Below are positions 28,786-49,399 of a stretch of DNA of 64,000 nucleotides, one piece after another (position 1 is the first letter of the stretch; each line of letters opens with the position of its first letter). Where the stretch lies: assembly GCA_905221615.1 (NCBI GenBank), contig CAJNDT010005833.1:288501-352500 (forward strand). The letters are read 5' to 3'. Source of the stretch: Symbiodinium sp. CCMP2592 (Eukaryota; Sar; Dinophyceae; Suessiales; Symbiodiniaceae). A model generated the notes under the pieces. It saw nothing but the letters and a program-made list of their open reading frames with translations, was not told the origin of the DNA and ran no database searches. The position numbers and the translations under genes are program-made.

Positions 28786-28918
28786 GTCCCACCGCCAGAA
28801 GTTCGACAACACCTACTGGCAACAGTTCGTTGCGGAGATCCGGCGTCCAGGTCCCAAGATTGTCCTGAGCAGTGCCACGAAAGCAAGGTTCAGGGCCAAA
28901 GCCGTCTTCTTACATTAA
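28786..28918 (+). CDS. Plus-strand exon ending in a stop
   Basis: ATCACAG|GTCCCACCGC (AG|G) opens one base plus 43 codons, beginning SHRQKFDNTYWQQFVAEIRR, to a TAA at 28,916-28,918. It may instead end earlier at a GT donor (CCAG|GTCCC) after RRP. The phase does not join directly to the exon at 27,978, so an exon between them is missing or they belong to different genes. Confidence 0.5.
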
Positions 28919-29134: not shown

Positions 29135-29159
29135 CTAACACCTGCACAGCCCCCGGGGT
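29135..29159 (-). CDS. RAB1: Tentative last Rab exon ending CxC
   Basis: GCACAG|ACCCCGGGG completes an arginine codon, then PRGLCRC and TAG. A terminal CxC is a known prenylation motif of Rab proteins. The phase fits the previous exon, but the acceptor is AG|A and the segment is only 25 nt. Confidence 0.33.
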
Positions 29160-32100
29160 CTGTGCACCCATCCAGCATCTACTTGAACCTCAAAGGGGTT
29201 CCGTTGTAGGTACTGTAGGTATACAGTAATTTTGGTGCAGGGAATCCTCATTAAACTTTCCGATTCCTACTAAACTATAAGAGCTCAAAAAGTTTAAAGG
29301 TTATGTATTGGGGATCTAAGTATATTCGAGCATGAACCCAGCCCTGGCCTGCAACCTCAGCGGAAAGGAAAAGAAGCTCTGAACCCAAATGCGAGCTGCA
29401 GAACATCAGGTGCCCTAATAAGAAATACCTGAGTAGTATCATCCTTCTTCCAAAAATCCGTTCAAGAGGGTCTTGTATAAGCCTACATGGTATTCTCCTT
29501 TTTAGAGTCTTCCAAGGGGCCATTTAGGAGGGACCCACAGCTTTCAGTCAGAAGTCCCAAACTCGCCACTCTCCCCGGGCAGCGTGCCTCGTCGGGGTGC
29601 TCGATGGAGGAGCTTCCTTTGAGACCCGGTCTTTGATCTCCTGCCAATTTTTTGAAGTATGCAGGGTTCCTTATTAATTTATCTTAATTCCTACATATCT
29701 ACTTTCAGGCCACAGCATCCACTTGCCAAGATTTTGAATTATCTAGGCTTACTACCCCAATAAGCCACAGGAATAGAAGGTTAAACTTTCCGGTTCCTAC
29801 TAAACTATAAGAACCCAAACAGTTTAAAGGTTAGGTATTGGGGATCTAAGTAGGGTTCCTTAATCTATCTCAATTCCTACATATGTACTTTCAGGCCACA
29901 GCATACACTTTGTATTGGGGGCCTGCTGTGCATGGAGGTGCTGGTAGCAGTCGGGGTACTTCTTTTGTGTTGCATTGCCTGTTGTCATCCTGAATCGTCG
30001 TCGCTGTCGTCATCGTGGCAGCACGCATTGTCGTCGTCGTCGCGAGGGACTTGTTGTTGTCTCGGTCGCGGTCGTGGTCGTCTTGGCTGTCTGAGTCGTC
30101 ATCAGCAGTACTTGCCAATGGTGCTCGAATCTGTGCTTGGGATCATTCTAGATGTTTGTTGGTCCAGAGTATCTCGTGCTCGATCAGCATTGCTACACAA
30201 TCACTGCTCGGCTAGTGTCATGATACGTTTGGGTTTTTCGGCTTCTGAGGAATAGCTGGCAACCTTAATCACTGTAAGCTGCAAACCCTAGGCCCTAAAC
30301 TAGGCCCTAAATCCCAATCCTCAACCCCTGACAGGGCTGAGCATTTAGCAGCTTTTGGGGATCAGTCGTTCGGGCTTTGTGGCACAGGCTTCAGCCACGC
30401 CGACAAACGTTAAACCCTGAACATCACCCAAGTTCCCTAAGCCCCAAAACCCTAAACCCAAACCTATGCCCTGAATTCTCAACTCAAGATCCCCGGCTGT
30501 GACCAGGCCTTGGCCATCTGCGTGAAGGCCTCGTCGACGTTGTGGGCATGTTTGGCGCTGGTTTCCAAGTATCCTTCGAGGGTGTGTGCGGCGAAGACCC
30601 AGGCGGTATCGACCTACCTAGACATGGCCAGCACTGCAGTGCTTTGTTTTGGATGGCGGATGGTACGGATAGTGCCTTTCAAAAGTTCTGGATGTGACGT
30701 AGGTAAGATCTCTATACCATGAATATGGTGTAAGACCACAAGGAAAGCCTACTACGAAGCATTGCGACCCCTGTTTGACCCACAAGTCTCAAGCCAAACC
30801 ACCAAAACAAAACCAAAACCAGTGAACCTCCGACAGGATCTAGGTTACCGGGCTCCGATTTTCGGATTGAAGGTTTGTTTCGGCCCGGCTCAGGATTTAG
30901 GCTTTTAGGCGGCTTCGAAGGTCGACTCATGCAAAACCCGCGCACTTGAACAGACTAGTCCTCTAACATGGTCCTCGGATTCCAAGCCTGAAATCTTAGG
31001 ATACTTACCTTTGGTTGGTAGGGAGTGGAAGAATGGTAGGAATAGTAGTTATAATTGTACCCCATTCCTCCATTCCCTACTAACCAAAGGTAAGGATAGG
31101 GTAACATAGGGCTTCATGCAGGGGGCGGTAAAGAATCACAAGTGGATTCGGGGTATTACATTCTAATAACCAGTATCTTTGAATAGAGGTATACACGGGA
31201 CCGACACGAAACCATAACCCTTAAACATCCACCGGACACGAGATTTAGTCTTCGGATTTTCTGCCAGCGGAGAGGCTTAGCCCGAGCTCGTCTGCAAGCT
31301 CACGAGCCTTGTGCGACTGCAGGAGCTGTGGCGTCTTGCTTTTAAGGTTTACAGTAGAAGCCCAAAAGTTGGAAACCCACTAGCCTCAGTCCTTAAGAGT
31401 AATGTATAGGGAATCCCAGCACTATTTGGCCTTAATCCGGTTTCCAACTTTATGGGGTGTACTGTAATGGTCTAAGCTTTAAGGATGTAGGATTTAGGGT
31501 TTGAAGAAGCCCACAGAACACCCCAGACAGCAGGGATTCAATATGAGGGCCGAACTATTTTGGGGCTCCGTATTGAAGGGAGAGTATAACATACATCAAA
31601 ACCCAAGTCAAACTATTGCGGCCCCTACAAAAAGCCATTCAAAGAGTAGTCTGCAGGAGCTGAAGCCTGTAAAAATTAGGCACTTGGACCCTCTGCTGTC
31701 GACCCAAAACTCTAAACTCTAAAACCCTGCTACCGGGGTGACGAGTTTCAGCAGCGAGTCAAACCCTCTTAACCACCCCGAGAAAACCTAGTAAAAGCCT
31801 ACACGGACAAGATCAAACCTCGACATTAAAACTGTGTAAGCCAAAATAAAACACTGCAAACACCAAGAACACCATAGGGAGAGTCACGAGTTTAGAGGGG
31901 CGATTGTGGTTCAGAACCCTAAACCCTACAACGAAACCCCACCTCGTCGTAGGTGACTGCTCGCTTGGAAGCCATATCCTGGGTTTCCGGGTGGGTTTGA
32001 AGGCTTAGTGTCACCAGGTTTACTATGGCTTGACAGGGTTTAATGGGATTTATAGGCAGGGTTGTTCAGGGCTCAAAAGTCTTAAGCTCCATGGGCTTAG

Positions 32101-35100
32101 GAAGCATTACCTATTCTGGGTGTCGGAACCGTTCCTTTGGGGTCCTGCCAGGGTTTATAGGGGTTCTATATGGCTCTGCTCTGTGACGGTCTATGGGTTC
32201 AGGGCTTCGGCCTTGGGGTTCTAGGAGAAACATGCGAAAACAGCGAAACCATCTCCAGAAGCCGAAGAAATCTGATGCCAAGCCGGTCGGGGGTCGCACT
32301 TGTTGCCCACAAGCATCTTGTTGATCCCAGGCTGTGAGTACTTCTCAATCTCCTACCCGCATGAAGCAACCGGCTCAGGGCTTCGAGCTAAGAACTTTGG
32401 GAGTTCGCGCCTAGGGCTTATATCCCATTTCGAGTGAGAAGTTATAGGATCTGAGTTTTACAGAGCTAGGCTTAGGATGCATAGGAAGAGGGCTCATAGA
32501 CTCCTTCTCCCAATACCAATAGTAGGCACTAGATGGTTCAATACTACCCTAAACGCTAAGTCTTACACATTAAGAACCTCAGGGCTTGTGCAGTTTAGTC
32601 GGGTCTGGTCTTCTGCTCGCTTCGTTTGCTCCTCTTCCTGCTGATTCGCGGCGTTTTGAGTCCGCATCATTCGGTGTCAAGACGTGCCCGGGCATGTCTG
32701 GGCGTACTCGTGCCGTCACCCACTGCGACCGTCCTTTTGAACGTCTCGTAAACCCTATAAAACCCTACAACTCAAACTCAAACCCTAATAAAGAGGCCTT
32801 AATTATTAAAATCTGGTTTTACACTGCAACCAAATTAATAAGGAACCCCCACAATATAGCATTGGTAACCTTTTTGAAGTTTAGAATTGAAGCTCCGATA
32901 TAAAACCCCAAGCCCTGAAACCATAAGAGTTGAACCCTCAGCTTACTACTCCAATAAGCCACAGGAATAGAAGGTTAAACTTTCCGTTCGGTATTGGGGG
33001 TCTAAGTGAGTCGGCCTCCAACCAGTGGCGTACGTTGTGAAAGGATTCGCGGTCCTCACTCGCACCGTGAAACTTAAGCCTTCGGGTTTATCAAAGGGGA
33101 AAAGGAGGGACCCTTAATGGGGACCCCTACCCTATAATGGGTATATAACGGCTATATTAAGGGTATACACCTAGGGGTCCTTATTGAGGGTCCCTCTGGA
33201 TTTAGGAAGTTTAGAGGTTATAGCGTTTAGGGTCCGGGGCTCATAGGATTGAGGTTTAGGGCTTATCGGCTTATATAGGGTTTATATATTAGGGCTTGTA
33301 GGGTTTAGGGTAGTTCCTCAAAGCTTTCCTAGATCCCCACCGCCAACCTCCATCAGAACCTAGCTGCCCATAATTGGCCATAAAGGCTGCATGAAGGGTA
33401 CCAGGACCTTCATTGAGGGTCCTCGACGATCCCGGTCATGTACGGTTGAGTGGATGACTCATAACCGCAGGACCTATGAATTTGTACTTGATGCTTTGGG
33501 GAGTTACCCCTGAACCCTACACTGGACCCCATCAGCCCTAAGCCTTAAACCCGAGAAGCCCTGAACGCTACAGGCCCAAGACCCTAAACCCTAAAAGCCC
33601 TGATACATGATATACTTTGACCCAGAAGTCCTGAACCCCTAACGACTCAGAGCTTGCACAGGCAACCGAAGCAACCTTCAATCCAGAGCTGAAGGCCACG
33701 GTCTAGGGATTAAGGCGAGGGTTTCGCGTTATACGATGCTATAATAGATGTATGAAGGAACTCTAGGGATCTAGGGATAACTCGAAGGATGTTTCAGGCT
33801 ATCAGATTGAAGTCGGACACGGAATTCTGACCCGGCTAGTCCTAACTCCACATGGAGTGGTTGAGGATTAGCGCGATTCGTTTTGACAAAACCCCAACGC
33901 TACACCGCCGGTGCACCGGCTGAAGGGCAGTAATTGTCTATGCGCAGGGGGTTGCTCGTACTGCTGCATATACCACCTACTTGTTGCAACCACTCTTTCC
34001 CCACGACCCTGGGCCCTCATCTCAACTCTCGAAACCCTGAACGCCAAACCCGAAAGAAAATTTTATGCTCTTAAGTAGAATCCCTAAACCCTAAACCCTA
34101 AACCCTAAAAGTGAACCCGACAGCCCTGAAGGAGGCAGAAGACTGTGAGGTCGAAGACGACGATGATCCCATGTGCACCTCTGTAGTAGCCTCAAATCCC
34201 AAAGGCTCCATGTACCCTTATAGTAGATACTTAGGCCTTAAAGGGGTCCCTATATAGGTACTTTAAGGCCTAAGTATCTACTATAAGGGTACATGGAGCC
34301 TTAGGGAATGCGGTGGTTGTCAAAATCAGGGTCGCTTTTTGGGTCCTTAATATGGTACGGCACCTAATATTTAGGCTACCCAAAATGGGACCTTAATTTT
34401 GACAGCTACCTAAATGCAAACTCCGAGCTCCGCGGGGGGAAAGAGCTCTTGCAAAACCTTGATCTGATTCTAGAAGAAGGCTTTACCTCACTAGCCCAAA
34501 ACCCAAGGAAACAAAAGTTGAAACTTTCAGAATCGACTACCTTATAAGAACCCCAAAAGTTGAAAAGTTGAGTTTACAGCCAATAAGCTACAAGGTGAGG
34601 TAATAAAGATCTGAGACGGGCGTTACAGAGTGTTTGCTTATTCAAGAACCCGGATTATGGTTCGCCAATGCGCTGAAGTCATTTGTGCATCTTCCAGTAG
34701 ACTACCCAGCTATACGAACCCAATAAACTACGTGTCGCATATGGGATCATGGGAGGAAACTATTCGGTGCCCTGAACACAATGTTCAGGATTCTGCAGTC
34801 TGATGTAGGATCCTGATTCAGAAACCCTGGCCCATGACCTCAATATAGGGACCCGTACAGCAAAGGACTCGCCTTTGGTCTATGCTTCTTCTGCAGCAGC
34901 CAAAAACGATAGAAACATTTGTCTAAGGCCCCAAAAAGCCTATAGCGCCCATAGCAACCCGACCCCAGACCCTTACTGCAATATCCTAACTCCAAAAGCC
35001 TCAAGCCCGTAATCCAAAATCCAAAATCATGAAGCCTCAGAGCCTAAATCTAAAATCTTAAACCATAAAGCCTCAAACCCTGAATTCAAAATCGTCAAAC

Positions 35101-35349
35101 ATCATCGCTTCAGCCCTAATCCGAACCCTGAGGCCGTCTTGCCGTGAGGCTCGCGCAAATGGTGCGAAACCGCTCCTGACCTCCCCCGGAGCGGTGCTTT
35201 GAAAATCTGTGTGTGTCTGTGTGCGTCTGTCCAATTCCAATTTAAGTATGTACATGTATATACAGGCATGCATGGATGCATGGATGGATGGACGGACGGA
35301 TGGACGAATGGATATGCATATACAAATACAAATACATATGCATGTGTAT

Positions 35350-35401
<52 letters not shown>

Positions 35402-38400
35402 ATTTGTATATGTACAATTTTATGTTATGTATGTGTGTATATATATATATATGGATACACACACACGTGTGTACTTGTAAGTGTATACCTATCTATCTAC
35501 ACATATATATATATATATATATATATGGTAACCCCCCCCCCCCAGGACCTACCTCCAAACCCGTCTGTCTACATATGATACCACACTTTATTACCCATGC
35601 ACACACACACACCCAAACACGCAAACACATGCAACATGGAATAGGTCTCCGAAGATTCGTGTATACGAACATGACTATACCAGAGGCCCCGCTGCATTAA
35701 AACCCGCATTAAAAAAATAAATTTTAATGCAGCCTGGCCCGTGGAACCAAGAACCAAGAACCAAGATTCCCAGGAGTCTTGAATCCTGAATCTTGGTTCC
35801 ACGGGCACCGGCCGGGTTGCATTAAAATTTGCATTAAAAAAATTAAATTTTAATGCAGCCCGGCCCGTGGAACCAAGAACCAAGAACCAAGATTCCCAGG
35901 AGTCTTGAATCCTGAATCTTGGTTCCACGGGCACGGCCGGGCTGCATTAAAATCTGCATTAAAAAATTAAAATTTAATGCGCTCTGGCCCGTGGAACCAA
36001 GAACCAAGATGCCCGGGTGTCTTGATTCTTGGATCTTGGTTCCGCGGGCACTTGTCGGGCTGCATTAAATCTGCATTAAAAAATTAAATTTTAATGCACC
36101 CAGGCCCGTGGAACCAAGATTCAGGATTCAAGACTCCTGAGCATCTTGGTTCTTGGCTCTTGGTTCCATGGGCCGGGCTGCATTAAAATATAATTTTTTA
36201 ATGCAAATTTTAATGCAACCCGGCCGGTGCCCGTGGAACCAAGATTCAGGATTCAAGACTCCTGGGAATCTTGGTTCTTGGTTCCACGGGCCTGGCTGCA
36301 TTAAAATTTAATTTCTTAATGCAAATTTTAATGCAACCCGGCCGGTGCCCGTGGAACCAAGATTCAGAATTCAAGACTCCTGGGAATCTTGGTTCTTGGT
36401 TCTTGGTTCCACGGGCCGGGCTGCATTAAAATTTGTTTTTTTTAATGCGCTTTTTAATGCAGCCAGGTCGCTGGAAACCATATAAATATTCACGAAACAT
36501 ATCGGTTTGCCATTTTATGTGCCACATGGCCACTCCTGCAGTGAAGATTAGCGAATGGATTGCTGTGCTTGACAGTTTGATCGCATGACAACAAATGTGT
36601 GATGACCCAAGCTGCATCTAATCAAAATCAAGTGATATTGTACTTCCAGTTCCAGTCCTGTCCTTGTGAGCATAAATACAATAAATACTGTACAGACAGG
36701 TTTAAATATGGAACATCAGTCGGAGCCGAACTTGCGAATGTCCAGCTGAGTTATAGCTTATTGAGTAACGGGTTCCCATGGTGGACATCAGGAACCTACT
36801 TGTAAACAGATATCATTCAAAATCCACTATAGAATACCTATCCCTTCCAGGATTTCATAGAAAATACTCAGGTCGTACCGTATAGAGTTTATAAAGTATA
36901 TACTTTGTATAATCTACCTTATGGAATACCCTGTATCTCATGAAACACCTTATAGAAATCTGTCCTATATATACACCCTATAGAATACTTTTTATACGTT
37001 ACAGGTTGGGATACCGTATAAATACCCTATAGACTGCCACATAGAATACCTAGTTTATCTCCTATATACCCTATCTGGTATACTTTACAGAATGTATTAT
37101 AAACGCCCTATGGATGATACTCCCTTTATACCTTATACATGCCCTTGAGAACCCCCATTGGGATACCCGACAAAAGCCGTATAGACCAGGATTTACGTAG
37201 TGTAAATCAGAAGGAGCCCAAGCTTCTTGCAGCTTATTGAGCAACGGACATTTATGCCTGTAGAATACCTTACAGAATACCCTTTTTACAAACCGTAAAG
37301 AAATTCATGTAGAATACGGTAATACCTTATATAATGTTCCTATATTCCCTATACACCTTGCACACCCAAGATCTGAGAGTTCCCCAGTTGAATGTGGTTT
37401 ATTTAGCAACGGATTCATATCAAGGAATTGCGGAATATAGGATCTAGAAATTCCTTGAAAATCGATGCTTGTCTAACAAAAGATACATAACGAGAACAGA
37501 GCTCTTCTGAAACACATGCTGCACATACCCTATAGAATGCCTGTTAAACTGCGTTTTCCACCGATTTACTGTACATACACCTTATATAATACCATCTGTA
37601 ATACCCCGTTGAATACTTTGAAGAAGAGCGCCTCTATTTGATACATCCTGTGTACCTTATGTATGCCATATAGAATACTTGTACAGTACCATTTAGATTA
37701 CTTTTTGAAACCCATTATAGAAAATCCTAACAGTACCTTATAGATACGTGTTTTAAATATGGAAAGCCAGCCGGAGCCCAAGATCTGATAATTTCCAGTT
37801 GACTTGCAGCTTTTGGGTAAAGGGTTCCTATGAAGAAATCAGGAACCAGGAAAACTATCCTTACAACTACCTTATAAAATACACTCTCTATGCACCTTAA
37901 TAAATTTCATAAAACATACACTATAGAATACCTTCCTACATATAGGCCGCAGAATGCCTTTTGTACAATACTTTATGGAGTACCCTCTACAATACATTAT
38001 AGAATGCCCTATAGAATACCATCCTTACAGAAGACCGCCTATGAAATATATCTTTTGTATACCCCAAATATACCTCATAGAATATCCTTCAGAATACCAT
38101 TTAAGATACCGTTTACAATAGCTTCTAACATACCTTATAGATCACGGTTCAAAAAAGGAACATCAGGAGGAGCGCGCCGTTAAATAGCGTAGCATACAGA
38201 GGACAGTAGACAATACTTCATGGTATTGATATGGCTCGAACGGTGTGGCGTCGTCGTAGACAGCGAAGACTACGCAGTATATTGCAGTTTAGTTCGGAGT
38301 GGATTCGTAACGTTGTCTAGACAGTACAAGAAAAGGCTTCGAGGTAGGTCCTGGGGGAGGGGGGGGGGGTAGCATATATATATATATATATATGTAAATA

Positions 38401-40760
38401 TCTGCACACATACATATACCTATACCTATACCTATACCTATACCCATATCTGTGTCTAAGCCTAAATCAAAGTATATCTATGTCTATGCCTATACCGAAG
38501 CCTAACTATACCTGTACGTTTTACCTATATATAAGTATATACATCCATATACATATCATATACACATACGCGCACATACATACTTGGACATATACATATG
38601 CAGAAAACATATACATTTATACATAGCTATGCACAATTATACTTAACTATACAGAACTGTACATATACATATGCATATGCTAATTACATATACATATAAT
38701 TACAGAAAACATATCAGCAAACATATGTTTTCTGCATAGATAGACATGGACAGAATGAGTTTTGTATCAACTGTCTACAAACCGTTTCACTCGAGCGTGA
38801 CTGAGTTGTCTTCGTCCTTTGGTTTCATGAGATGTAAGGTGTTCGGGCGTTGGATCGTTTGGCTTTCGGGCTTATAAGGTGTCGGACAATGGGCAAAGGT
38901 TGAGAGGGATCCCCATGTTACTGACGAGATGCTGTTGCAAGTCCTGTTCCTGTCACTCGAACTAACCTGGTTGCTTGCATGCTTAGACCATTGACACCTT
39001 CGGGCGTGCGCAGATTATTCTGACGGTGTGCCGGTTGCAACTCGGGTTCGTAAAGGGCCCCGGTCTCGGCCATGTTGCTATGGACAGGCAGTTTCTAACC
39101 CGCTTCCTGAAGGAATGAAATTCTTGAGGGCTGTTCTCGCTGTTTCCGGCTTTGCCGGTAGAATCTCTAAACCCTCAATCACATCAGCCGAATCGTTAAA
39201 CCAAACAAAACCCCTATCGCAAACCTAAAGCCTCTGTAAACATACTGTACAGACTCCCAGAACACCACCAAGGGAAATCCCAGACCCTTAACCGCGGCCC
39301 CAAACCCCAAACTTCAAAACGCGGCAGGAGCACCGGCAGTGTCCCAAATCTGCGTCTTGGCTTTCTTGCCATCCTGAGCACAGAGATTTCCAGGGCTTAG
39401 GGCAGCTTAGGGGCTTTTAGAAGCGGCTTCGCGTTTGGAGTATACCTTACCCCAAAATCACCTACATTTTTTAGGACTTATATAAGGCAATCAGAATAAG
39501 GAACCAAAAAAAAGGCAGGTTTTGTCAGGGTTAAGGTGGGGCTTAGGGCTTAGGGTTCAGGGCAGGTTTCGGTTTTCGGGCTTTGGGCTGAGGGCAGATG
39601 AGGGCTTCGTGCTTAGGGCTGTTCAGGGTCTCGGGGCCGTCCCCTTTGGCTCCACTTTGGTGTCCAAAGTGTACAGTACCAATGCCAACTTTGGGATGTC
39701 TGAACCAGGCGTTGTGACGGCGGCTGAAAAGAGCAACTCCATGCTCGGCACGTTCAGGGGCTCTGTTACTTTTGAGTTGTCTTCAGCAAGGTTTCACGTT
39801 TGGAGTTCCAGCGCTAGCAAAAATGAAGATTTCGGGTTTGACTAACATCCTAATCGGACTGCGCAGTCGTGAAGCATTGGGGGTAACAGGTAAAAAGTAG
39901 GAACATCTGGATACAACGTCCCCAGCTATAGGCGGATCCTGAGGAAAGGCAGTTCCTAAATCCTCGGTCCCGCCAAAAACAACAGCGCTTCGAGGCATTC
40001 TTCCTCCAAAACCTTCACATCGAATGGTCTCTGGGGTCACAATCTCCGTGTCGGATCGCAACACACCACTGTTTAGTTTAGGGCTCATTGTCTCAGAGTC
40101 TACGAGTCTAGGCACGGAGGTAGACCCCTATGGACAGAAGCCGCGAAGCCAGGAACATGGTCCGGATGCGGAAGTCGACGCCAATCGTGGCAACGAAGTT
40201 GTCAGAGTAGGTGTCCTCGGTGAGACTGCACTGCCTGCTCAAAGTTGCTAATATAATCCCTATGCCTCCAGGGACCTTATTATGGGGGCCTTAAGGGGTC
40301 TAGGGCCCTAACTATGAGGTCCTTGGAAGGATAGGGTAAGGGCTTAACAACCAGAGTAGGGTTTTGGGGGTATGTTAAACAGTATGTAGGTAAAATACAC
40401 AAGTACAAGCATATACAAACAGATTCCGTTAAAGAGCCCTCAGAAGAAGTGTCGGAATTGCGGATTATTCGATCAACTCTACACCACCCCGAGAAAAAAC
40501 AGTTAAACCCAAAACCCCGGTGGGAACCTTTCTGGCTTGTCACCAGAGGCCCCATCTTGCGATCCCTGACCGCCGAACTCTGGTAATATGGTTGATGATA
40601 TAAATCCAGCATTACCCATAATAAGGAATATACCATTGTTCTCATAGTTTAGGGTCCTTAAGGTAATGCAGGATTTATATCATCAACCGTATCTCGTGTT
40701 GAAAACCCCTCAGCCAAGTCTCGTCTGCGAAACGCAGCAGGAGGCACGACTTGCCGACAC
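29135..40760 (-). CDS. RAB1: Rab1-type small GTPase, spliced over more than 11 kb
   Basis: Rab1 GTPases switch between GTP and GDP forms and direct vesicle traffic from ER to Golgi. The minus strand holds, in correct order, GVGKSCLLLRFAD (P-loop), DTYSDNF...TIGVDFRIRT (switch I), DGKKAKTQIWDTAG (G3), QERFRTICAS, YYRGAHGIIVVFDLT, IEKYSQPGINKMLVGNKCD (G4), YLETSAK...NVDEAF (G5), MAK/EIKDRVSKE, and a possible CxC tail. Exons: 40,723-40,760; 40,150-40,215; 39,334-39,373; 35,151-35,180; 34,144-34,190; 33,981-34,008; 32,284-32,352; 30,509-30,613; 29,588-29,640; 29,135-29,159. Introns range from 135 to 4,153 bp. Most acceptors are AG|G; donors are GT, GC and GA. Phases join through YYRGAHGIIVVFDLT and from ETSAK to the tail. 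Missing: the first exon (start codon to GDSG), roughly DQESF after FDLT, and a few residues after NKCD. It may be a working gene with unseen micro-exons, or a decaying copy. Confidence 0.88.
29250..29320. mobile_element. Family B element, 5'-truncated
   Basis: Starts at ATTAAACTTTCCGATTCC and runs to TATTGGGGATCTAAG. It lies in the last presumed Rab intron. Confidence 0.8.
29588..29640 (-). CDS. RAB1: Rab exon: EIKDRVSKE
   Basis: TTGGCAG|GAGATCAAAG (AG|G) gives EIKDRVSKEAPPSSTPT plus AG, GC donor (GAG|GCACGC). It continues AFTQMAK in phase and matches the start of the Rab hypervariable tail. Confidence 0.8.
29661..29912. repeat. Direct duplication split by a family B element
   Basis: About 62 bp (AGGGTTCCTTA...TTCAGGCCACAGCAT.CACTT) occur at 29,663-29,724 and again at 29,852-29,912 with a few differences. 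The B element (29,748-29,850) lies between them. Confidence 0.85.
29748..29850. mobile_element. Family B element, intact
   Basis: CTTACTACCCCAATAAGCCA to GGTATTGGGGATCTAAG with TAGG on both sides (29,744-29,747 and 29,851-29,854). It lies in the intron between the ETSAK and EIKDR exons. Confidence 0.9.
29995..30105. repeat. GTC-type trinucleotide-rich tract
   Basis: Imperfect TCGTCG, GTCGTC and CGGTCGTGGTCG runs. Open frames on both strands here are simple-sequence effects. Confidence 0.7.
30509..30613 (-). CDS. RAB1: Rab exon: ETSAK
   Basis: AGGTAG|GTCGATACC (AG|G), 35 codons, GC donor (AAG|GCCTGG), phase 0 at both ends. It contains GYLETSAKHAHNVDEAFTQM. The whole exon is antisense to an open plus-strand frame at 30,510-30,722, which should be ignored. 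Confidence 0.9.
31002..31095. mobile_element. Inverted-repeat element, family N
   Basis: CTTACCTTTGGTTGGTAGGG ... CCCTACTAACCAAAGGTAAG, better preserved than the copy at 6,722. In the intron between the NKCD and ETSAK exons. Confidence 0.88.
31348..31467. mobile_element. Inverted-repeat element, family D
   Basis: ACAGTAGAAGCCCAAAAGTT ... CCAACTTTATGGGGTGTACT then GTA. Nearly the exact reverse of the copy at 18,956. Confidence 0.85.
32284..32352 (-). CDS. RAB1: Rab exon: NKCD
   Basis: Reads (E)IEKYSQPGINKMLVGNKCD, the guanine-recognition motif with normal spacing. Acceptor is either GGTAG|GAG (32,352) or GAG|ATT (32,349); the second keeps exact Rab1 length with the WLQQ exon. The donor is unclear; a GC site after NKCDPRP is used here. 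Confidence 0.85.
32944..33200. mobile_element. Family B deletion copy and family J element
   Basis: At 32,942-33,006 a B element lacks its middle (AAACTTTCCGTTCGGTATTG). At 33,097-33,197 an intact J element has arms GAAAAGGAGGGACCCTTAAT / TTGAGGGTCCCTC. Both are in the WLQQ-NKCD intron. Confidence 0.8.
33981..34008 (-). CDS. RAB1: Tentative Rab exon: KEWLQQ
   Basis: GCCCAG|GGTCGTGG (AG|G), one base then VVGKEWLQQ, GT donor (CAA|GTAGGT). It would supply the VKxWLxE helix before the G4 exon. The phase does not join to the FDLT exon, so a five- to six-residue micro-exon is needed in between. Confidence 0.42.
34082..34110. repeat. CCCTAAA array inside the shortest Rab intron
   Basis: Four exact units within the 135 bp intron between the FDLT and WLQQ exons. 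Confidence 0.85.
34144..34190 (-). CDS. RAB1: Rab exon: YYRGAHGIIVVFD
   Basis: TTTGAG|GCTACTACAG (AG|G). It completes the serine codon, then YYRGAHGIIVVFDLT, GT donor (ACA|GTCTTC). YRGAHG is typical of the Rab1 subgroup. A family H element begins seven bases outside the acceptor. Confidence 0.9.
34197..34306. mobile_element. Inverted-repeat element, family H, near-perfect
   Basis: AAGGCTCCATGTACCCTTAT ... ATAAGGGTACATGGAGCCTT, almost base-perfect arms of about 45 bp. It is immediately followed by a family I element. Confidence 0.92.
34310..34413. mobile_element. Inverted-repeat element, family I
   Basis: GGTGGTTGTCAAAATCAGGG ... ATTTTGACAGCTACC. AATGC lies directly before and, after two extra bases, again behind it, probably a 5 bp target duplication. 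Confidence 0.85.
34482..34604. mobile_element. Inverted-repeat element, family L, with outer ends
   Basis: TTACCTCAC at the left and GTGAGGTAA at the right are exact reverse complements and show the full extent of the family, which is not visible in the other two copies. Confidence 0.8.
35151..35180 (-). CDS. RAB1: Rab exon: QERFRT
   Basis: GGGGAG|GTCAGGAGCGG (AG|G). It completes the glycine of WDTAG, then QERFRTICA and one base before a GC donor (CGA|GCCTC). The catalytic glutamine is present. Only 30 nt long, 4.15 kb from the previous exon. Confidence 0.88.
35265..35530. repeat. Compound microsatellite (ATGG, TA, TG)
   Basis: GCATGGATGCATGGATGGAT, then TA, TG and further TA runs. Frames on both strands through this tract are artefacts. 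Confidence 0.9.
35685..36466. repeat. Palindromic hairpin satellite
   Basis: Six to seven units of about 120 bp. Each unit contains CCCGTGGAACCAAGAACCAA, CAGGAGTCTTGAATCCTGAA and TCTTGGTTCCACGGGC, itself a hairpin, joined by AT-rich palindromes (GCTGCATTAAAATTTGCATT / TTAATGCAGC). Units left of about 36,085 and right of it are in opposite orientation, so the whole block is one large palindrome of smaller palindromes. Confidence 0.88.
36700..38180. repeat. Degenerate TATAGAATACC array with longer spacer copies
   Basis: Motifs like CTATAGAATACC, TTACAGAATACC and CATAGAATACC recur more than 15 times. A longer spacer (TTTAAATATGGAA.., CGGAGCCCAAGATCTGATAA, CAGCTTATTGAGCAACGG) recurs at about 36,701, 37,205, 37,365, 37,751 and 38,148. 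The open frame at 36,599-36,805 lies across this repeat and has no recognised domain. Confidence 0.7.
38396..39330. other. Intronic DNA with TACCTA array; no gene seen
   Basis: TACCTA repeats at about 38,408-38,450, drifting TATACATA-type simple sequence to about 38,720, then unique sequence. The frame at 39,028-39,228 lies in the Rab intron, is antisense to it and has no recognised features. Confidence 0.55.
39334..39373 (-). CDS. RAB1: Rab exon: WDTAG
   Basis: GCTCAG|GATGGCAAG (AG|G), 13 codons (DGKKAKTQIWDTA) plus the first base of glycine, GT donor (CCG|GTGCTCC). Spacing from RIRT to WDTAG is the same as in known Rab1 proteins. Confidence 0.9.
40150..40215 (-). CDS. RAB1: Rab exon: switch I
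   Basis: ACCGAG|GACACCTAC (AG|G), 22 codons, donor GC (CTG|GCTTCG). It reads DTYSDNFVATIGVDFRIRTM then FL. The threonine of TIGVDF that contacts magnesium is intact. Joins in phase 0 on both sides. Confidence 0.9.
40590..40692. mobile_element. Inverted-repeat element, family A
   Basis: ATATGGTTGATGATATAAAT ... GGATTTATATCATCAACCGT then AT. Intact, about 30 bases beyond the donor of the Rab P-loop exon. Confidence 0.9.
40723..40760 (-). CDS. RAB1: Rab exon: P-loop
   Basis: CTGCGAG|GTGTCGGCAAG (AG|G). Two bases complete the glycine codon, then VGKSCLLLRFAD. The donor is GA (GAC|GAGACT). The lysine-serine of the nucleotide-binding loop is present. Confidence 0.88.
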
Positions 40761-41117
40761 CTCGCAGAACTCCCAAGCCTTGACCCCTGTAGGGGGCCTA
40801 AAGAATCACCAATACTAGGGATTAGGGTTTAGGATTTAGGGATTTAGGGTTTAGGGGTTTTGGTTTAGGGTTCAAAAGAGGTCTTATAAGGGCTCCACTT
40901 TATCAACTCTCGGAGATAACTTGTCGTTGGCAATCACAGCACTCTTTGGAGGCCTCAACAGAGAAAGCTTGCGTGAACACTAACTTGACCAGGAAAACTG
41001 CAGTATCACATAGGCCTCAGCTCCAAACCTGAACCCTTTATTTGTACACATGGGATCGGACTACCAGTTTGAGGGTTCGCTGGCATGCGCCGCCGTAGGA
41101 TTTCACAAACATTCAAT

Positions 41118-41242
41118 GGGGAAAAGGAAGGACTCTTAATAAGGACGCCTAGGTAAATACCCATAATATAGCCATTATATACCCATTATATAGCCCATTA
41201 TAGGGTAAGGGTCCCCATTAAGGGTCCCTCCTTTTCCCCTTT
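41118..41242. mobile_element. Inverted-repeat element, family J
   Basis: GGGGAAAAGGAAGGACTCTT ... AAGGGTCCCTCCTTTTCCCC, with a TATACCCATTATATAGCCC centre. Confidence 0.85.
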
Positions 41243-41335
41243 GAAACATGCCAGGGCTTTGGGTTTGCTGTTCTGGTGCCTGTGGCTCTGAAGCCTTAGA
41301 CTGCCGTAAGAAGGCGGCGGTCCAAGGCTCTGGGC

Positions 41336-41527
41336 CCCAAAGGCTCCATGTACCCATAGGCCCCAAAGTAGTTCCTTTGTGGGTTCATATATAGAATCCT
41401 ATAAGGTAGTCCCAAAAAGGAACTACATGTACCCTTATAGTAGATACTTAGGCCTTAAAGGGGTCCCTATAATATAGGTACTTTAAGGCCTAAGTATCTC
41501 TACTATAAGGGTACATGGAGCCTTAGT
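41336..41527. mobile_element. Family H element containing a family G insertion
   Basis: H is interrupted after GGCTCCATGTACCC by a G element (about 41,352-41,418) that lacks its last arm bases. ATGTACCC is present on both sides of the insert. H then continues TTATAGTAGATACTTAGGCC to ATGGAGCCTTAG. Confidence 0.8.
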
Positions 41528-42059
41528 GGGTGGGGCTACATAGAGTGAGCCCCCAGATCTACGGAGATTCGGTGGCCGGGATATGCGTCAAAAAGCATGA
41601 AGTGCAGCAATGCATACCACAAAGGCATCAAATGTGGAGAAGGCACCGGAATCCCCTATCAGCAGAAGGCGGAAGAGGTAGTCATGATCCTTGAGACACG
41701 CGAGGGCTCTGAGTTTATTGCTGGAAGTTTGGGTAATATCAGTGCACTAACACTAGAATGGGCTTCGGAGGGGTACGCTATATGAATCTCCGTGTTGTGG
41801 CTTTCCAACTCTGCCTATGTTGTACACCAAAACATGCTGCTGTAATTGCTGAGGCCAGGAAATTCCCACATGAGACCACAAACCCGTCAGCGCTTGCCAC
41901 CCGGTCGAACTCAAACCTGCAGACAGTATAACCTTACACCCTGACCCTCGGCCCGAAAGCCTCAAACCCCTCCAAACGCCCTGAAGTCCTACACTTGGCC
42001 CTGAACCTGAAACCATGAACCCTCAAACTGCTTTAACACCTTAACGAAGTTTGAGCCCT

Positions 42060-42170
42060 AAAACCCGAAACCCTAAACCCCCAAGCCCTAAAGCCCTAAA
42101 GCCCTAAACCCCTAAACCTCTAAACCTCTAAAGCCCTAAACCCCGAAACCCTGAAACCCAAAAACCTGAA
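42060..42170. repeat. CCCTAAA tract
   Basis: About 14 drifted units (CCCTAAA, CCCTGAA, CCTCTAA). Confidence 0.75.
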
Positions 42171-42984
42171 ACCCGTGTGCCATGATCCGACGACCAAAAA
42201 GTCGAATCGAGGGATGATCATCTAGGTGTCGATTTTCAACAGTTCCCAAACGGTTCCATGTTAAACCACAAGGGGGGTATAGGGTTCAGGGGTTGTCGGA
42301 ATAAGTTTGAATACGTGGACGTTAATACAAAAGCAGAATGGGGCTTATAATGGAATATTTAAACTATGTAGTTCAGGTCGATGCATGTCATATAGAGTAA
42401 AAGTATATACGGACTAGAAGCAAGATCGCACTGCTAATTACTGCGTCTATGTTGCCCAGGGATGGAGACTTACCTGGTCCTCGGAATGTACAGCGCCACA
42501 GAACTGCAACCACAAAGCTATTGACTAATGTCTCTCCCTTCATATAAAGGCTGTAGTTCTATTGTGTAATGCTTGGAAGAGGGTCTAGGGGTATACTACG
42601 AGATTCCAATAGAATCGGCGTCTACGTACACACGAACATCAGCATATAATTATACAAGAACTGGCGACATCAGTTCTGAGGGGCTGGTTAAAGTTTCCCT
42701 AGCGCTCTAAGGACTCATATATTAAGGCTTTTGGGCCCAAAGACCACACTCTATAAGGCTTTTGGGCTACTTTGATCCCCAGGGTTTGAAGGGCTACCGC
42801 CGAGGAATTTTTTCCCTTGTGAAGGAGGATACCAGTGCGTCATCTAAGGGCCTGAACAATTCTAAGTCTATGTCAAGACCCCCACTACCTACCAAAACCT
42901 AGGTGTTGTAAGGCCAGGGCGCCCAACAACAACATACAAAAACATGGGTCATAAGAGTTTCAGGTATCGCAGGGTTTCAGTCGA

Positions 42985-43081
42985 AGGGCGCTGGAAGCGG
43001 GCAGCAGAGCGTTGGCCATGGCGTCGGCGAGGGGAAGTGGGGAGATTTCTGCGCTTGCCGGGCTCTGGCGATCCGTGGGCC
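42985..43081 (+). CDS. Possible exon, strand and frame uncertain
   Basis: On the plus strand GTCGAAG|GGCGCTGG to GGCCAG|GTAGGC has an AG|G acceptor and GT donor and is open in more than one frame. The minus strand is also open and contains MANALLPASSALRL. The block is GC-rich and repeat-free, so coding on one strand is likely. Confidence 0.3.
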
Positions 43082-43137
43082 AGGTAGGCTGCAGCCATGC
43101 ACGCTTTGTAGAGGGTTTAGGGTTTATATGGTAAGGG

Positions 43138-43234
43138 TCCCAATACCCAATATTCCTATACTCTCCCAAATATTTACCTGCTAAACTGCATCATCCAAAA
43201 TCAGGGTACATCATTAGTCGGACCCTTTGGGTCC
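43138..43234. mobile_element. Family P element, diverged
   Basis: CCTATACTCTCCCAAATATT ... GTCGGACCCTTTGGGTCC; the left end is degraded. Confidence 0.6.
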
Positions 43235-43544
43235 ACTAGGTTTCTGTCACAAGAAGTTGCCCGCTTTATGGTTCCACAAGTGGGTCCCTAAGCTTCCATG
43301 AAGGGCCTTAGAGGAATATATCAACGATCTACAGGGTTCTGTAAAGGTTGTGACTTGTAAGCTGGGCTGCAGAACCAACTAAGGGACCCTGTTAGGGGCA
43401 GTTTGTCAAGAAGGAAGCCACTCCTGAGGGTCTGTGTTTGGCTCCCGTCATGTCTGAAATGTGAAATGCCCCTACTACCCGATATTCACATTTACGCCAG
43501 AGAGTGGCTTTCCAGATTTAATGCGTTGCTTTCTGTTGTGTGTT

Positions 43545-43550
43545 AGTCTC

Positions 43551-43611
<61 letters not shown>

Positions 43612-43694
43612 CTCAGTCTCTCTCTCTCAGTCTCAGTCTCTCTCTCTCTCTCTCTCTCTCTCAGTCTCAGTCTCAGTCTCAGTCTCTGTCTGTG

Positions 43695-43744
<50 letters not shown>

Positions 43745-43750
43745 TGTCTT
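43545..43750. repeat. CT microsatellite
   Basis: About 200 bp of CT repeat with regular CAGTCT and CTGTCT interruptions. Serine/leucine-repeat frames here are artefacts. Confidence 0.97.
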
Positions 43751-44004
43751 TCTGTAGTCCCCAACCGGTCCTCTGTGCCAGGGACCCTGTAAAACCAGCC
43801 GCAGGCCATGCTTTAAGGCTTACATAGGGCTTCAGGATTCATGTTCCGGTTGAAGGGCGTTGCTCTCGATGCCTAGACCACTCCTGACACGTACGATCAC
43901 CTGCTCCAAAACTCCAGACAAGTACAATGTTACAATGTCTTCTGCGTGGACCATACAGCCAAAGACCATAAACATACCCGCCACAATAAACCTTAGACCC
44001 CACT

Positions 44005-44232
44005 TAAAGCCCCTTATACTAAACTCTTATAGTAGCCCCAAAAGACCCCTTTAAACAGGAATCCTACTCTCATGAATTAAGGCCCCAAATACACCTTCGG
44101 CACACCGCCGGCGAAAGCCGCAGTAGGGTTCTGAAGTTGTGCAGGGGTTAACTTACCACCCCAAGCATAACGTTCCGATTCCTACTGAACTATAGGAATC
44201 CAAAAAGTTTAAAGGTGTATTGGGGATCTCAG
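44005..44232. mobile_element. Family K fragment and diverged family B element
   Basis: K pieces lie at about 44,005-44,092 (TCTTATAGTAGCCCC; CATGAATTAAGGCCCC). A B copy at 44,152-44,232 has lost part of its left half (CTTACCACCCCAAGCATAAC). Confidence 0.6.
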
Positions 44233-44660
44233 TTAATGAGGCACAATAAGGGCGTACAGCCCAGCCTGTATTTGTAGCCGAAAAGACCTAACTTTCTAGG
44301 GTTCTTTGGGCCACGGGTATGAATCTCTAATATAGGTGAGGTAAAGGCATCCGCTATTGCAGGACATCTTCCACCAAGGATTCATGTAGGAATGTGAATG
44401 GTAAATAAACGGTCCTAGTATAGGTACAATAGGGTCTACAAGGCTTAATGTTTGGGGTTAGGGGTTTGGGGTTCCTGGGCCTAGCATTTCCGGGCGGTTA
44501 CCACGCGGGGGTTGACCTAAGGTACAAGGTGTGCATGTACCTCATAAACCTGCAAGCCAAATCAACCTGACAAATTAATCTTAGAAGTTAAGTGCGCATA
44601 TCTCATTAGCTTGTACGCAGCTCATAGTATACGTAGATCATACTTATTATTCGATGTAAG

Positions 44661-44776
44661 AAACCCTATAGGGGTCCATGTACTCATATAGTATATACAT
44701 TGGCCTTAATGTAGTCCCTATATAGGTACTTTGGGGCCCATGTATCTTTATATGTGTACATGGACCCTTAGGGAAG
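44661..44776. mobile_element. Family H element, diverged
   Basis: GGGGTCCATGTACTCATATA ... TATATGTGTACATGGACCCT then TAGGG. Confidence 0.75.
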
Positions 44777-44779
44777 TGT

Positions 44780-46330
44780 AATACACTTCAATTTGCTAAG
44801 CTTGCTGCTGAGAAGTTCTGCTGTACGCCGACCTGGTCGCTGCCGAGGAGTTTTCACAACAGACATGGGGCCTGGGATTCTTGCATGTTATGCTTCAGTA
44901 TTAAGTTTTGTTTGTTTGGTTTTGCGTTTCTTGGGCACTGTAGGCTAAACACCTATGCAAATGTAATATATAGACTATAGAGTTAATACACATGCCCAGG
45001 AGACTGTATGAATATCTTAATGCCCTACATACGCTTGATTACACGCGCACAGGCATACATTCCCACACTTCTAAAGACATACATGAGCACATGCGCGCAC
45101 GTGCCTAAACACATACTGTTTATGTGTTGATCATTGATCATGGTACGGATAATGACTGCTAGTTCTGGTACACTGTACACAGCACACACCAGGCCACTTG
45201 CCAGCGAAATGACAGAACACGAGGCATTTCATGCAACGCTCATGATTATTCTACAACTTGGACTCCCGAAAATCTCTGGCGCAGTGCCGCCTGCCGTTTT
45301 CTGATTTCCTGGTGTTTCGAGTTGGCGCATGTCTGTGCGTTTCCACTTTTCTTCTCAATTTGTAGCATCGCCGCATTACCTACCTATGGGGGCTTAACAA
45401 CAGCACACAACAGTGCTGACAATCGCAGGACGATATGCCTGCAAACTGGAAACATGTACATACATATGGTTTATGTAGTGCCGTCACAAATATTGTGTCA
45501 GGGGTGTAAACTGTCTGTGTGTACGCAAATCAGTGAGTAGTGTATTTTCACTGTAGTTTGTATTGTGATGCAGTATTACACTCGGTAGTATCCCCGCTAA
45601 AGGTAAACGGTGCAACCACATCATAAGCGTGCTAACCAAACGCTAACGTTATCCTTGGACCGACAGGGTTGGGCACTTCGTCACCTCCCTGTACCCCTTG
45701 CCCCTGGGCCAAGCGCGGCAATCCCACCAAAGGGAGAAAAGGCAATGGTTAAAGATTCACAAGAGGGTTTAGGACCCCCTGCCGTATGATCATAGTTTAC
45801 TGCTTAAGAACCCTTACACCGCACCGAGGCGGCTCTGCCTCAAACCCCAAACCTCGCCGAGCCTGGGCCACACGCAAAACCTACACCGCCAACCTGATAT
45901 TTGTAGCCTAACTATCCGTGTTCTCATTGAAAAAGGCTTAACTGCATGTCCTCTCGAGTAGCGAAGCCATGCTTTCATCAGTTTATTGAAATGCGAAAAC
46001 CAAGCCAAAACAAGCAAAGCCAATCCCTAAACCCTCAACCCTAAACCCCGAACATGAAGTCGGAACTCTGACAACCCTCGTCTCTCGTCTGTCGGTACAA
46101 GGGCCGCATCACACGCGGGCCCTGAAAGCCTCCGTGTAAATCCCTGAGCCCGTAAACACCCACAAGCTGCAACAACCCTCAAACCCTACACCGTCAAAAC
46201 AGCTCAGCCCTTTGTAAAGCTTAAAGTAATTCAACCCTAACTCCTTAAACGGCCTTACCTCAAGGCCTCAAACACCGGACCCCCTGTGTAGAAATGAACT
46301 AAGCAAAACGTCAGCCCTCAGTTCGGAACA
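44780..46330. other. Repeat-poor interval, no assigned gene
   Basis: Between about 44,880 and 45,620 telomere-type units are absent and sequence is of mixed composition, with one plus-strand frame (45,322-45,540) of unknown meaning. From 45,760 onward CCCTAAA-like units return. A minus-strand frame at 45,814-46,023 has no recognised domain. Confidence 0.45.
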
Positions 46331-46334
46331 TGGC

Positions 46335-46394
46335 CTTCCCTTCCAAGTCCCGCAAGGCGAAGCGGATGTCCTTCAGGGCGGACAATGTACGGGC
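46335..46394 (-). CDS. Probable exon (ARTLSALKDIRFALRDLEGK)
   Basis: A T-rich tract and TTTTTTTAG|GCCCGTACA (AG|G) precede 20 codons, ARTLSALKDIRFALRDLEGK, then AAG|GCCATG (GC donor). Phase 0 at both ends. An amphipathic helix is likely. Family unknown. Confidence 0.55.
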
Positions 46395-46739
46395 CTAAAA
46401 AAATACATGTTGGAGGTTCCTGTTGCCAAAGCCCTAATGAAATTCTTATTGCACCTACATTAGGTTGTCAAGGCCGCTGTTAAAGGCTTCGAAGAGTTTC
46501 GTACAGTGTACAGGTGTTTACCACGGGGCTTTTGACAGGCTCATAAGGCCATCCTTCGGGTTGAAGGAGGGCTCTGCATGGTGTAAGTGTATATGGAGGT
46601 TTGAGAAGGATTTCGTTCAAGTTTAAGGAAGGGCTTAAGCTTAAGGTTAGGGGTTTGAGGCCAAGGGCAAAAGGTGTCAGGGTCTCAGAGTTGTTTATGC
46701 TTCTCTGGTTTTGACAATGAGTCTCCCAAAGGACCACTT

Positions 46740-46912
46740 AAACCCTAAACCCTAAACCCTAAAGGGGTTGAGGGTTCAGGTAGGGTTCTGAAATCTCGCA
46801 GCGACTTTAAGACTCCAGGTCCCCTGCCCATGCCTGATACAAGCCCTTGGGTTTGGGGTTTTTGGTTTAGGGTTGAGGGTTCAGGGTTTGGGGTTTTTGG
46901 GTTTTAGGGCTT
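46740..46912. repeat. Telomere-type tracts in both orientations
   Basis: CCCTAAA units at 46,740-46,762, then TTTAGGG/TTTGGGG units at 46,848-46,910. Confidence 0.7.
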
Positions 46913-46915
46913 CTC

Positions 46916-47018
46916 CGTACTACCCCAATAAGCCACAGGAATAGAAGGTTAAACTTTCCGATTCCTACTAAACTCTAAGAACTCAAAAAGTCTAAAGGTT
47001 AGGTATCGGGGATCTAAG
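46916..47018. mobile_element. Family B element, intact
   Basis: CGTACTACCCCAATAAGCCA to TCGGGGATCTAAG. TCTC is directly before and after (46,912-46,915; 47,019-47,022), a 4 bp target duplication. Confidence 0.9.
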
Positions 47019-47113
47019 TCTCAACCCCCAACTCCAACGTAAATCCCAAACACAACCGCAGCCCGAAGGCCGCAACTAAACTCACAAGCCCGCCATCCTC
47101 AACCCTTCATACC

Positions 47114-47276
47114 TTACCAGAGGCTCCATAGTAGTTCCTTTTTGGGATTACCTTATAGGATTCTATGTATGAAGCCCAAAAAGGAACCATAGTAGCTCCT
47201 TTTCGGGATTACCTGATAGGATTCTAAGTATGAAGCCCAAAAAGGATCTACTATGGAGCCTCTGGGTAAACCGCCA
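47114..47276. mobile_element. Family G element with internal tandem duplication
   Basis: ACCAGAGGCTCCATAGTAGT ... ACTATGGAGCCTCTGGGTA. The middle (AGTAGYTCCTTTTYGGGATT to AAGCCCAAAAAGGA) is present twice in tandem. Confidence 0.8.
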
Positions 47277-47312
47277 CATCTCAGGACCGAAAACCCAAGC
47301 CCGTTCTTGGAC

Positions 47313-47364
47313 CTCGGGGGAGAGAACACCGTCGGCATCATGGTCGAGATAGAACCAAATCATC
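47313..47364 (-). CDS. EF-hand-like exon (DHDADGVLSPE)
   Basis: Minus strand: CAAGAG|GATGATTTGG (AG|G), one base plus 17 codons, MIWFYLDHDADGVLSPE, GT donor (GAG|GTCCAAG). The loop has D at positions 1, 3 and 5, G at 6 and L at 8, as in EF-hand calcium-binding loops, after an aromatic FYL helix end. The exon stops before position 12, where a glutamate would be expected in the next exon. Probably a calcium-binding protein; nothing more can be named. Confidence 0.55.
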
Positions 47365-47774
47365 CTCTTGAGGCATTATGTAGGGGTTTCGGGTTTAGGA
47401 AAAGTTGATGCGTTTTTTTCAAAGGAGTTTTGCGTTTCTTTTAAATCGCCAGGTGTTTCAGGGCTGGTGCTTACACGTTTGTGGAGGGGGCATCGGAAAA
47501 TGTTTATCGGGACTATCAATGGGGGCGTACCTAGAAGAAGGTTTCGGCTGGCTAGGATGTGGGTTCCTCTACTGTTTCAGATTTCCCTCTGTCTGTGTGT
47601 GTTTGTCGGGTTTGACACGATAGGGATGTGGGTCCCTCTACATGTCGGTCTACAGCTGTGCGTTAGGGCTGTTGGGTCCTAAAACGCTGAAGGCTGCCAG
47701 AGTGTGAACTATGGGCTTGAGGTTTGAAGATATTCAGGGTCGTAAACACTAGAACTTGGTTTTGGGTGCATCAA

Positions 47775-47879
47775 TGGGAATTTCCGAAAATAGGGGACTC
47801 CAAAATAGCACCCTAAATAGCTGGATCCTTGTTATAAGGATGCCCCAAACAAGGTACCCCTAATTTCGGAAACTCCCAA
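47775..47879. mobile_element. Inverted-repeat element, family E
   Basis: GGGAATTTCCGAAAATAGGG ... GGTACCCCTAATTTCGGAAA then CTCCC. Confidence 0.8.
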
Positions 47880-48099
47880 GTCCTATCAAGTGAAACCCGC
47901 TATGAGTCCTGAATTCTGTGCCCCTAAACTTTGCTTTGCTGGGAAGGTACCCAGCAAGCCTCGCAATCCGAGAAAACCCCGCAGGTCAAGCCAGATCAAA
48001 ACCTCAAAATCTCGAATCCTAAAGTCCTCAACCCTTGCTACATTCCCAGATCATCTCTAACCCTGAATCTCACACACCAAACCCTAAAACCCGTAATAT

Positions 48100-48185
48100 A
48101 GGGGCCTGAATAATTAGAACGGGGTTTTGGGGGCCCAATATACTATAATTACAATTGGGAACCCCCACCGTGGTAATTAATTTAT
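48100..48185. mobile_element. Family K element
   Basis: ATAGGGGCCTGAATAATTAG, GGGTTTTGGGGGCCCAATAT, then GGGAACCCCCACCGTGGTAA; the right end is altered. Confidence 0.65.
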
Positions 48186-48224
48186 TGGTAATTAGTTAAG
48201 CCTGTATGTTAGTCTAACCGCATA

Positions 48225-49213: not shown

Positions 49214-49214
49214 T

Positions 49215-49246
<32 letters not shown>

Positions 49247-49311: not shown

Positions 49312-49399
<88 letters not shown>

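Follow-up and report, generated by a model that had tools for sequence, protein, structure and literature searches.

A Rab1-type small GTPase gene in fourteen small exons and its intronless retrocopies in a dinoflagellate-type nuclear genome

In three Symbiodiniaceae the introns begin with GT in 23.6-36.6% of cases, with GC in 43.6-58% and with GA in 17.4-19.8%, and the acceptors read AGG in 96.1-97.1%, as given in the excerpted part of PMC10666404. The same excerpt has GT/GC/GA at 28.8/52.7/18.5% and AGG at 96.9% for Polarella, and it records differing patterns for Amphidinium (GA 0.1%), Prorocentrum (AGG 79.7%) and Amoebophrya (GT 99.9%). The exons are small: two Symbiodiniaceae have medians of 51 and 53 nt and a third has one of 81 nt according to part of PMC7789003, the species of its exon table being assigned via the quoted intron lengths. 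Dinoflagellate retrogenes are described, in the section of PMC6050394 used here, as carrying a leader relict at -50 to -100 before the start codon, and an intron-bearing relative was identifiable there for only 6.4% and 9.8% of the retrogenes of two species.

The window analysed here is a stretch of 64 kb (positions 288501-352500 of contig C4971) from a genome of 1,098,105,373 bases in 5,383 contigs. We are highly confident that its minus strand carries an intact, intron-rich gene for a small GTPase of the Rab1 subfamily, in a nuclear genome that resembles those of dinoflagellates in its leader relict, its splice sites and its size. The acceptors are AG|G in all 13 cis introns and the donors are mixed (seven GC, four GT and two GA), which agrees with the preliminary description of this DNA, where nearly all acceptors were said to be AG|G and the donors to vary. 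In this the gene is like those of Symbiodiniaceae and Polarella, with their GT, GC and GA donors and about 96-97% AGG acceptors, and unlike Amphidinium and Amoebophrya in its donor pattern, going by the excerpted figures. Its median exon of 41.5 nt fits the Symbiodiniaceae with medians of 51 and 53 nt; its mean exon is 45 nt, compared with means near 100-120 nt in the published Symbiodiniaceae tables as excerpted. The intron density, which comes from a single short gene, is 20.7 per kb of coding sequence, about twice the published values of ~8-9.5 (introns per gene divided by mean coding length, from the same partial sources). Tiny exons, GC and GA donors, AG|G acceptors and pairs of parent gene and retrogene are already published for dinoflagellates in the sources excerpted here, and the novelty implied by the preliminary description finds no support, these features matching the gene statistics of Symbiodiniaceae and Polarella. 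The window gene is real and ordinary for its lineage. Among the titles and abstracts listed in literature searches, none dealt with this particular gene.

When human RAB1A was aligned to the minus strand of 25-45 kb by spliced protein-to-DNA alignment (any phase, introns of at least 40 nt, GT, GC and GA donors favoured, AG acceptor), a score of 544 was obtained and the product ran DHDYLFRLLLIGDSGVGKSC...ETSAKHAHNVDEAFTQMAKEIKDRV with the order kept. The controls lie far lower: at most 168 for 30 shuffled RAB1A proteins, 156 for the reversed protein, 157 for RAB1A on the plus strand, 150 for reversed DNA, at most 176 for 20 block-shuffled DNAs, and 139-171 in six runs on both strands of three other, partly overlapping 20-kb stretches. 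The gene is therefore present and not an artefact of permissive alignment, and the earlier claim of GTPase motifs that follow one another in order on the minus strand, with joins that keep the frame, holds. The motifs G1 to G5 are read in the spliced protein in order as GDSGVGKS, the T of TIG, WDTAGQE, NKCD and ETSAK, and an early spliced model, with a wrong tail and without exon 1, already matched Pfam Ras at E 9.7e-64.

A genome-wide search for the Ras family gave 44 matches (E <= 0.001), the best of which is an intronless gene on contig C4334 (L001) that shares 93% amino acid identity with the window protein over 208 residues. With this 208-residue protein as guide, the spliced score on the minus strand of the window is 886, against at most 187 for 20 shuffled versions of it, 162 on the plus strand and 157 for the reversed protein. 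In blastn the C4334 DNA matched all 14 window exons one by one, with the order kept, and the match extends about 24 nt upstream of the ATG and about 146 nt beyond the stop. Over the coding sequence, 12% of the bases differ between the C4334 gene and the window gene. It might be argued that Rab-like fragments have been strung together by chance, given that, with exons this short and introns unconstrained, any protein reaches about 140-187 here. We attach negligible weight to this possibility, as the true score is three to five times the chance level and an independent intronless gene with identical joins already refutes it.

Guided by the retrocopy, we place the gene at 43019-28813 on the minus strand (14.2 kb), in 14 exons of 30-66 nt that amount to 627 nt of coding sequence with the stop and encode 208 amino acids in an intact frame. 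Exon 1 (42990..43019, 30 nt) begins with the ATG and encodes MANALLPASS; it was placed by a blastn match and by the spliced alignment of the retrocopy protein, and it differs from the C4334 DNA at three of 30 positions. Exons 2 to 12 were each obtained by spliced alignments and blastn, and exons 4, 9 and 12 also by a search with the gene's own protein. The first part of the P-loop is in exon 2 (41647..41689, 43 nt, DHDYLFRLLLIGDS(G)), which is followed by exon 3 (40723..40760, 38 nt, VGKSCLLLRFAD) with a GA donor after it, by exon 4 (40150..40215, 66 nt, DTYSDNFVATIGVDFRIRTMFL) with switch I, and by exon 5 (39334..39373, 40 nt, DGKKAKTQIWDTA(G)). Beyond the longest intron (4153 nt) come exon 6 (35151..35180, 30 nt, QERFRTICA(S)), exon 7 (34144..34190, 47 nt, YYRGAHGIIVVFDLT), exon 8 (33016..33054, 39 nt, DRESFHNVRHWLE) and exon 9 (32296..32352, 57 nt, EIEKYSQPGINKMLVGNKC), the last of these again with a GA donor, and then exon 10 (31943..31978, 36 nt, DMASKRAVTYDE), exon 11 (31277..31307, 31 nt, ARELADELGL(R)) and exon 12 (30509..30573, 65 nt, YLETSAKHAHNVDEAFTQMAK). 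Exon 13 (29588..29640, 53 nt, EIKDRVSKEAPPSSTPT(R)), whose donor was fixed via the retrocopy, and exon 14 (28813..28864, 52 nt) were each placed by spliced alignment and blastn. Exon 14 encodes TILGPGRRISATNCCQ-stop and ends in NCCQ, with two cysteines that are predicted to be prenylated; the tail of the C4334 retrocopy is of the identical type.

The preliminary description was right about the many tiny exons and fell short of their extent, with at least nine exons of 28-105 nt and about 400 coding bases spread over 11.6 kb. The gene that it called complete-looking at 29135-40760 misses the exons at 43019-42990, 41689-41647 and 28864-28813 and includes a false one. This is the tail exon at 29188-29135 (VQVDAGWVHRPRGLCRC-stop, with a CRC end), which falls within the final intron; the counterpart of the retrocopy tail LGPARRISATNCCQ is instead the TILGPGRRISATNCCQ-stop of exon 14. 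A start exon that we had considered at 43845-43834 (AACATGAATCCT, from similarity to human MNP) was displaced by the retrocopy-guided model. Both of the rejected exons are plausible against human RAB1A.

The introns measure 317-4153 nt (median 776) and have an overall GC of 0.41-0.52, compared with a third-position GC of 0.727 in the gene. With the splice preferences switched off, 12 of the 13 junctions obtained with the retrocopy guide allow G[TCA]...AG|G with the coding sequence unchanged, and the last junction is off by 3 nt. Under human RAB1A as guide the same signal-blind run covers ten junctions among eleven GTPase-domain exons, the eleventh junction having reached a wrong exon; seven of the ten allow this pattern and three cannot. 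Pairing between intron ends was considered as a splicing aid and set aside, the ends of the 13 corrected introns pairing no better than shuffled ends (P 0.19, 0.37, 0.67 and 0.54).

Like the introners of Amoebophrya and other dinoflagellates, the window introns contain hairpin-forming (MITE-like) repeats with further copies in the window; these differ from introners in that they have no ends at splice sites and show no excess of end pairing. Repeats recurring in the window are present in 11 introns and absent from two; none of their limits falls on a splice site, the nearest being at 6 nt. For repeats of this kind, found more than once in the window, introners as whole introns were rejected. 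A hairpin-forming repeat at 34197..34307 (minus strand), in the intron before exon 7, stops 6 bases short of the 3' splice site and has relatives elsewhere in the window. Inside the longest intron, at 35685-36474, there is a cluster of about 790 nt of nested direct and inverted repeats, with units containing GCCCGTGGAACCAAGA, which is adjoined by AT-rich microsatellites. One short repeat family occurs in two introns of the gene (41120-41250 and 33087-33196), at 3820-3943, and also in the sequence shortly before the C4334 retrocopy, where the identity is 87% over 132 nt. The heptamer TTTAGGG was counted in 233 scattered copies in the 64 kb (94 plus, 139 minus) and resembles an interstitial telomere-type repeat.

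The copy on C4334 is a retrogene, being intronless, with a single intact frame from MANAVLPASS to SATNCCQ and with a spliced-leader relict upstream. The relict, TTTTGGCTCTAG, ends 72 nt before the ATG, inside the -50 to -100 range given for retrogenes in the part of PMC6050394 cited above, and has one mismatch in 12 to the leader core and five in 21 over its full length. The core at one mismatch or fewer occurs once in 55,830 bases (eight loci on both strands, some overlapping) and is absent from the window's 128,000 bases of both strands, where simulated sequence gives 0.65. The single match is this one, on the correct strand and at this distance from the start, and it is by its place that the relict was judged. 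Within the 3.5 kb of the C4334 locus, the coding strand has no run of eight or more A. The intron-bearing relative of this retrogene is identifiable, unlike that of most retrogenes in the same excerpt.

A second intronless copy lies on C1702 (L003, C1702:104817-105443), with an open frame and 73% identity over 208 amino acids. Its GTPase motifs are altered (GDYGVGKS, CGIDF), and its dN/dS is 0.27 to the window gene and 0.41 to the C4334 gene; it may be a retrocopy on which constraint has weakened or changed. No leader relict was found at this locus at up to two mismatches of 12.

The closest described proteins are those of the Rab1/Ypt1 group (human RAB1A, yeast Ypt1 and Cryptosporidium rab1a, 2rhd), which have in common with the window protein all G motifs, the stretches TIGVDF, WDTAGQERFRT and YYRGAHGIIV, and the tail cysteine pair. 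Compared with the human and Cryptosporidium proteins, the window protein has KTQIW for KLQIW, FRTICAS for FRTITSS and FDLT for YDVT. Against solved structures its best matches were Cryptosporidium rab1a with 273.9 bits and human Rab1A with up to 270.7 bits, followed by Ypt1 with up to 248.6. The weakest Rab1/Ypt1 chain among the matches listed had 247.4 bits and the best Rab8 220.0, and this order of scores places the protein in the Rab1 subfamily.

However, the genome has a closer Rab1 than the window gene. Another gene, on C2458 (L029), encodes a protein that shares 73.4% identity with human RAB1A in an alignment of 203 residues, compared with 58.6% for the window protein, and that reaches 323.6 bits with the human Rab1A structure. 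This gene is also a Rab1 gene with many small exons; the two proteins are 65.2% identical and have the tail pattern LGPG-R...CC in common. The acceptors of the C2458 gene are AG|G in ten of 11 cases, and its introns differ from those of the window gene in measuring 53-348 nt, except for the first of 1285 nt, which depends on a tentative first exon. In an unrooted tree of eight sequences the window gene and its two retrocopies form a firm clade (100/100), and C2458 groups with them at moderate support (84/85); three of the five inner branches of this tree are weak. Judging from these comparisons, the reading that fits the window gene best is that of a diverged Rab1 paralog. The earlier name was thus correct as to type and too plain as to identity.

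The existence of the other copies can also be turned against the window gene, by supposing that it is decaying or silent and that the intronless C4334 gene or the Rab1 gene of C2458 does the work. The first offers an intact intronless version and the second a better Rab1, but we consider such a relic improbable. The 208 codons are intact across 14 exons, every one of the 13 introns has kept its G[TCA]...AG|G ends, and the window and C4334 genes, at dS 0.547 and dN 0.039, give a dN/dS of 0.072, which would be higher had the window gene long been dead, although a pairwise ratio cannot apportion constraint between the two genes and could be low partly through constraint on the C4334 copy. Moreover, the higher dN/dS of the diverged C1702 copy means that a relaxation or change of constraint shows up where there has been one. 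The preliminary description had named a better Rab1 locus elsewhere, with only a genomic copy here, as the outcome that would speak against it. A better Rab1 does exist on C2458; the reading of the window locus as only a genomic copy is not borne out by its intact frame and low dN/dS. The window locus is accordingly taken as an intact gene, of which the C4334 retrocopy could still be the main expressed version.

The introns of the window and C2458 genes were compared over a core of 168 codons, in which the former has 11 and the latter nine. A single position is common to both, between exons 8 and 9 of the window gene, before EIEKY and in phase 0. When introns were placed at random before G, the mean number of common positions was 0.49 and at least one was found in 40% of 20,000 runs; with uniform random placement the mean was 0.20 and at least one was found in 18% of runs. 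The common intron may be ancestral or due to chance. For the other core introns, which differ, either both genes have turned over their introns or one of them had an mRNA stage.

If it was the window gene that had such a stage, it could be an old retrogene, a Rab1 mRNA having been reverse-transcribed, inserted here and re-cut by about 13 introns gained afterwards, with its message retroposed again to give the copies on C4334 and C1702. The two genes are alike in their tail residues and 65% identical, yet only one of 11 core introns matches, which is within what random placement before G yields. A gained intron may be seen in the Rab gene L002 on C2201, uninterrupted but for a 90-nt insert (1860-1949) that is bounded by GC...AG|G, includes a stop codon and occupies a site that is continuous sequence in an intron-rich relative on C338 (L031). 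We nevertheless hold this history to be tentative and rather unlikely: uniform placement makes one common intron less expected, so that it may be ancestral, two old paralogs with independent intron gains and losses give the identical pattern, no leader relict lies near the gene start or anywhere else in the window at up to four mismatches of 21, and none of the repeats detected in the window has an end that coincides with a splice site of the gene. If it were true, one gene family of one genome would have lost its introns, regained them and lost them again in a complete cycle.

The C2201 gene may itself be a retrogene with one gained intron. It has TGTTGGCCCAAG 45 nt before its start, two mismatches from the leader core, a resemblance that is weak alone because simulated sequence gives 8.5 such matches per 128 kb. 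Besides the C338 gene, two more intron-rich Rab genes with small exons were found on C3669 (L030) and C5287 (L032). These three, the window gene and the C2458 gene have at most one exact intron position in common per pair in core models guided by RAB1A. A Rab1 gene with other introns, an intron-rich paralog and retrocopies together make a small test case for the gain and loss of introns.

For the diverged paralog in the window, splicing as read from these sites would ask little of the spliceosome beyond an intron that opens with G (as GT, GC or GA) and an AG|G acceptor, by which 13 introns of such varied length would be removed from between exons of a few tens of nucleotides. The message is probably capped by trans-splicing of the spliced leader at a candidate acceptor AG at 43089..43090 on the minus strand, which would leave a 5' UTR of 69 nt to the start codon. 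This AG aligns with the end of the leader relict in the retrocopy, in an alignment that is weak, only about 25 nt before the ATG aligning well. A gene of the window type was reverse-transcribed at least once to give the intact intronless copy on C4334. With its GTPase motifs and two-cysteine prenylation tail, the protein should serve early secretory traffic as a GTP switch. The exon structure, the intact frame, the retrocopy with its leader relict, the low dN/dS and the pattern of splice sites are results of computation; the expression, the trans-splicing and this cellular role of the window gene are what we infer from its sequence.

The earlier statement that methods based on open frames miss this gene is largely correct. 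Searched frame by frame over 29135-41689, Pfam Ras gave one match just over the cut-off (E 8.7e-6), one at 0.0013 and nothing in the third frame, the first of these being the exception to the statement. The window locus is absent from the 44 matches of the genome-wide Ras search at E <= 0.001, and the gene's own protein at the same threshold finds only three of the 14 exons (exons 4, 9 and 12, E 2e-6 to 4e-4). Elsewhere on the minus strand (1-29134 and 41700-56699, three frames) nothing exceeded a Pfam family cut-off. The strongest lines below threshold were YxzE (E 0.00095) and the FGT1 zinc ribbon (E 0.0011), the latter judged to be noise when inspected by eye. No Rfam family reached its gathering score in the window.

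An intact and conserved gene can therefore be nearly invisible to frame-based searches in this genome. Transcript-guided pipelines adapted to such splice sites already exist, as described in the excerpted part of PMC9412976. A remedy without RNA is to use the intronless retrocopies of the same genome as proxy transcripts for the joins and ends of genes, an approach that corrected both ends of the window gene model.

Further members of the Ras family were noted in the genome. On C1001 an open frame of 618 amino acids (L005-L007, C1001:821115-822800) holds three Ras-like domains in tandem and looks like a polyprotein gene, and a single-domain Ras-like gene follows about 5 kb beyond it. Clusters of open frames that match the Ras family, all on one strand within a cluster, lie at C4888:103841-107210, C4896:944042-959939 and C4512:227062-230322 and resemble tandem arrays; the matches are evenly spaced, at about 1.45 kb on C4888 and 0.97 kb on C4512.
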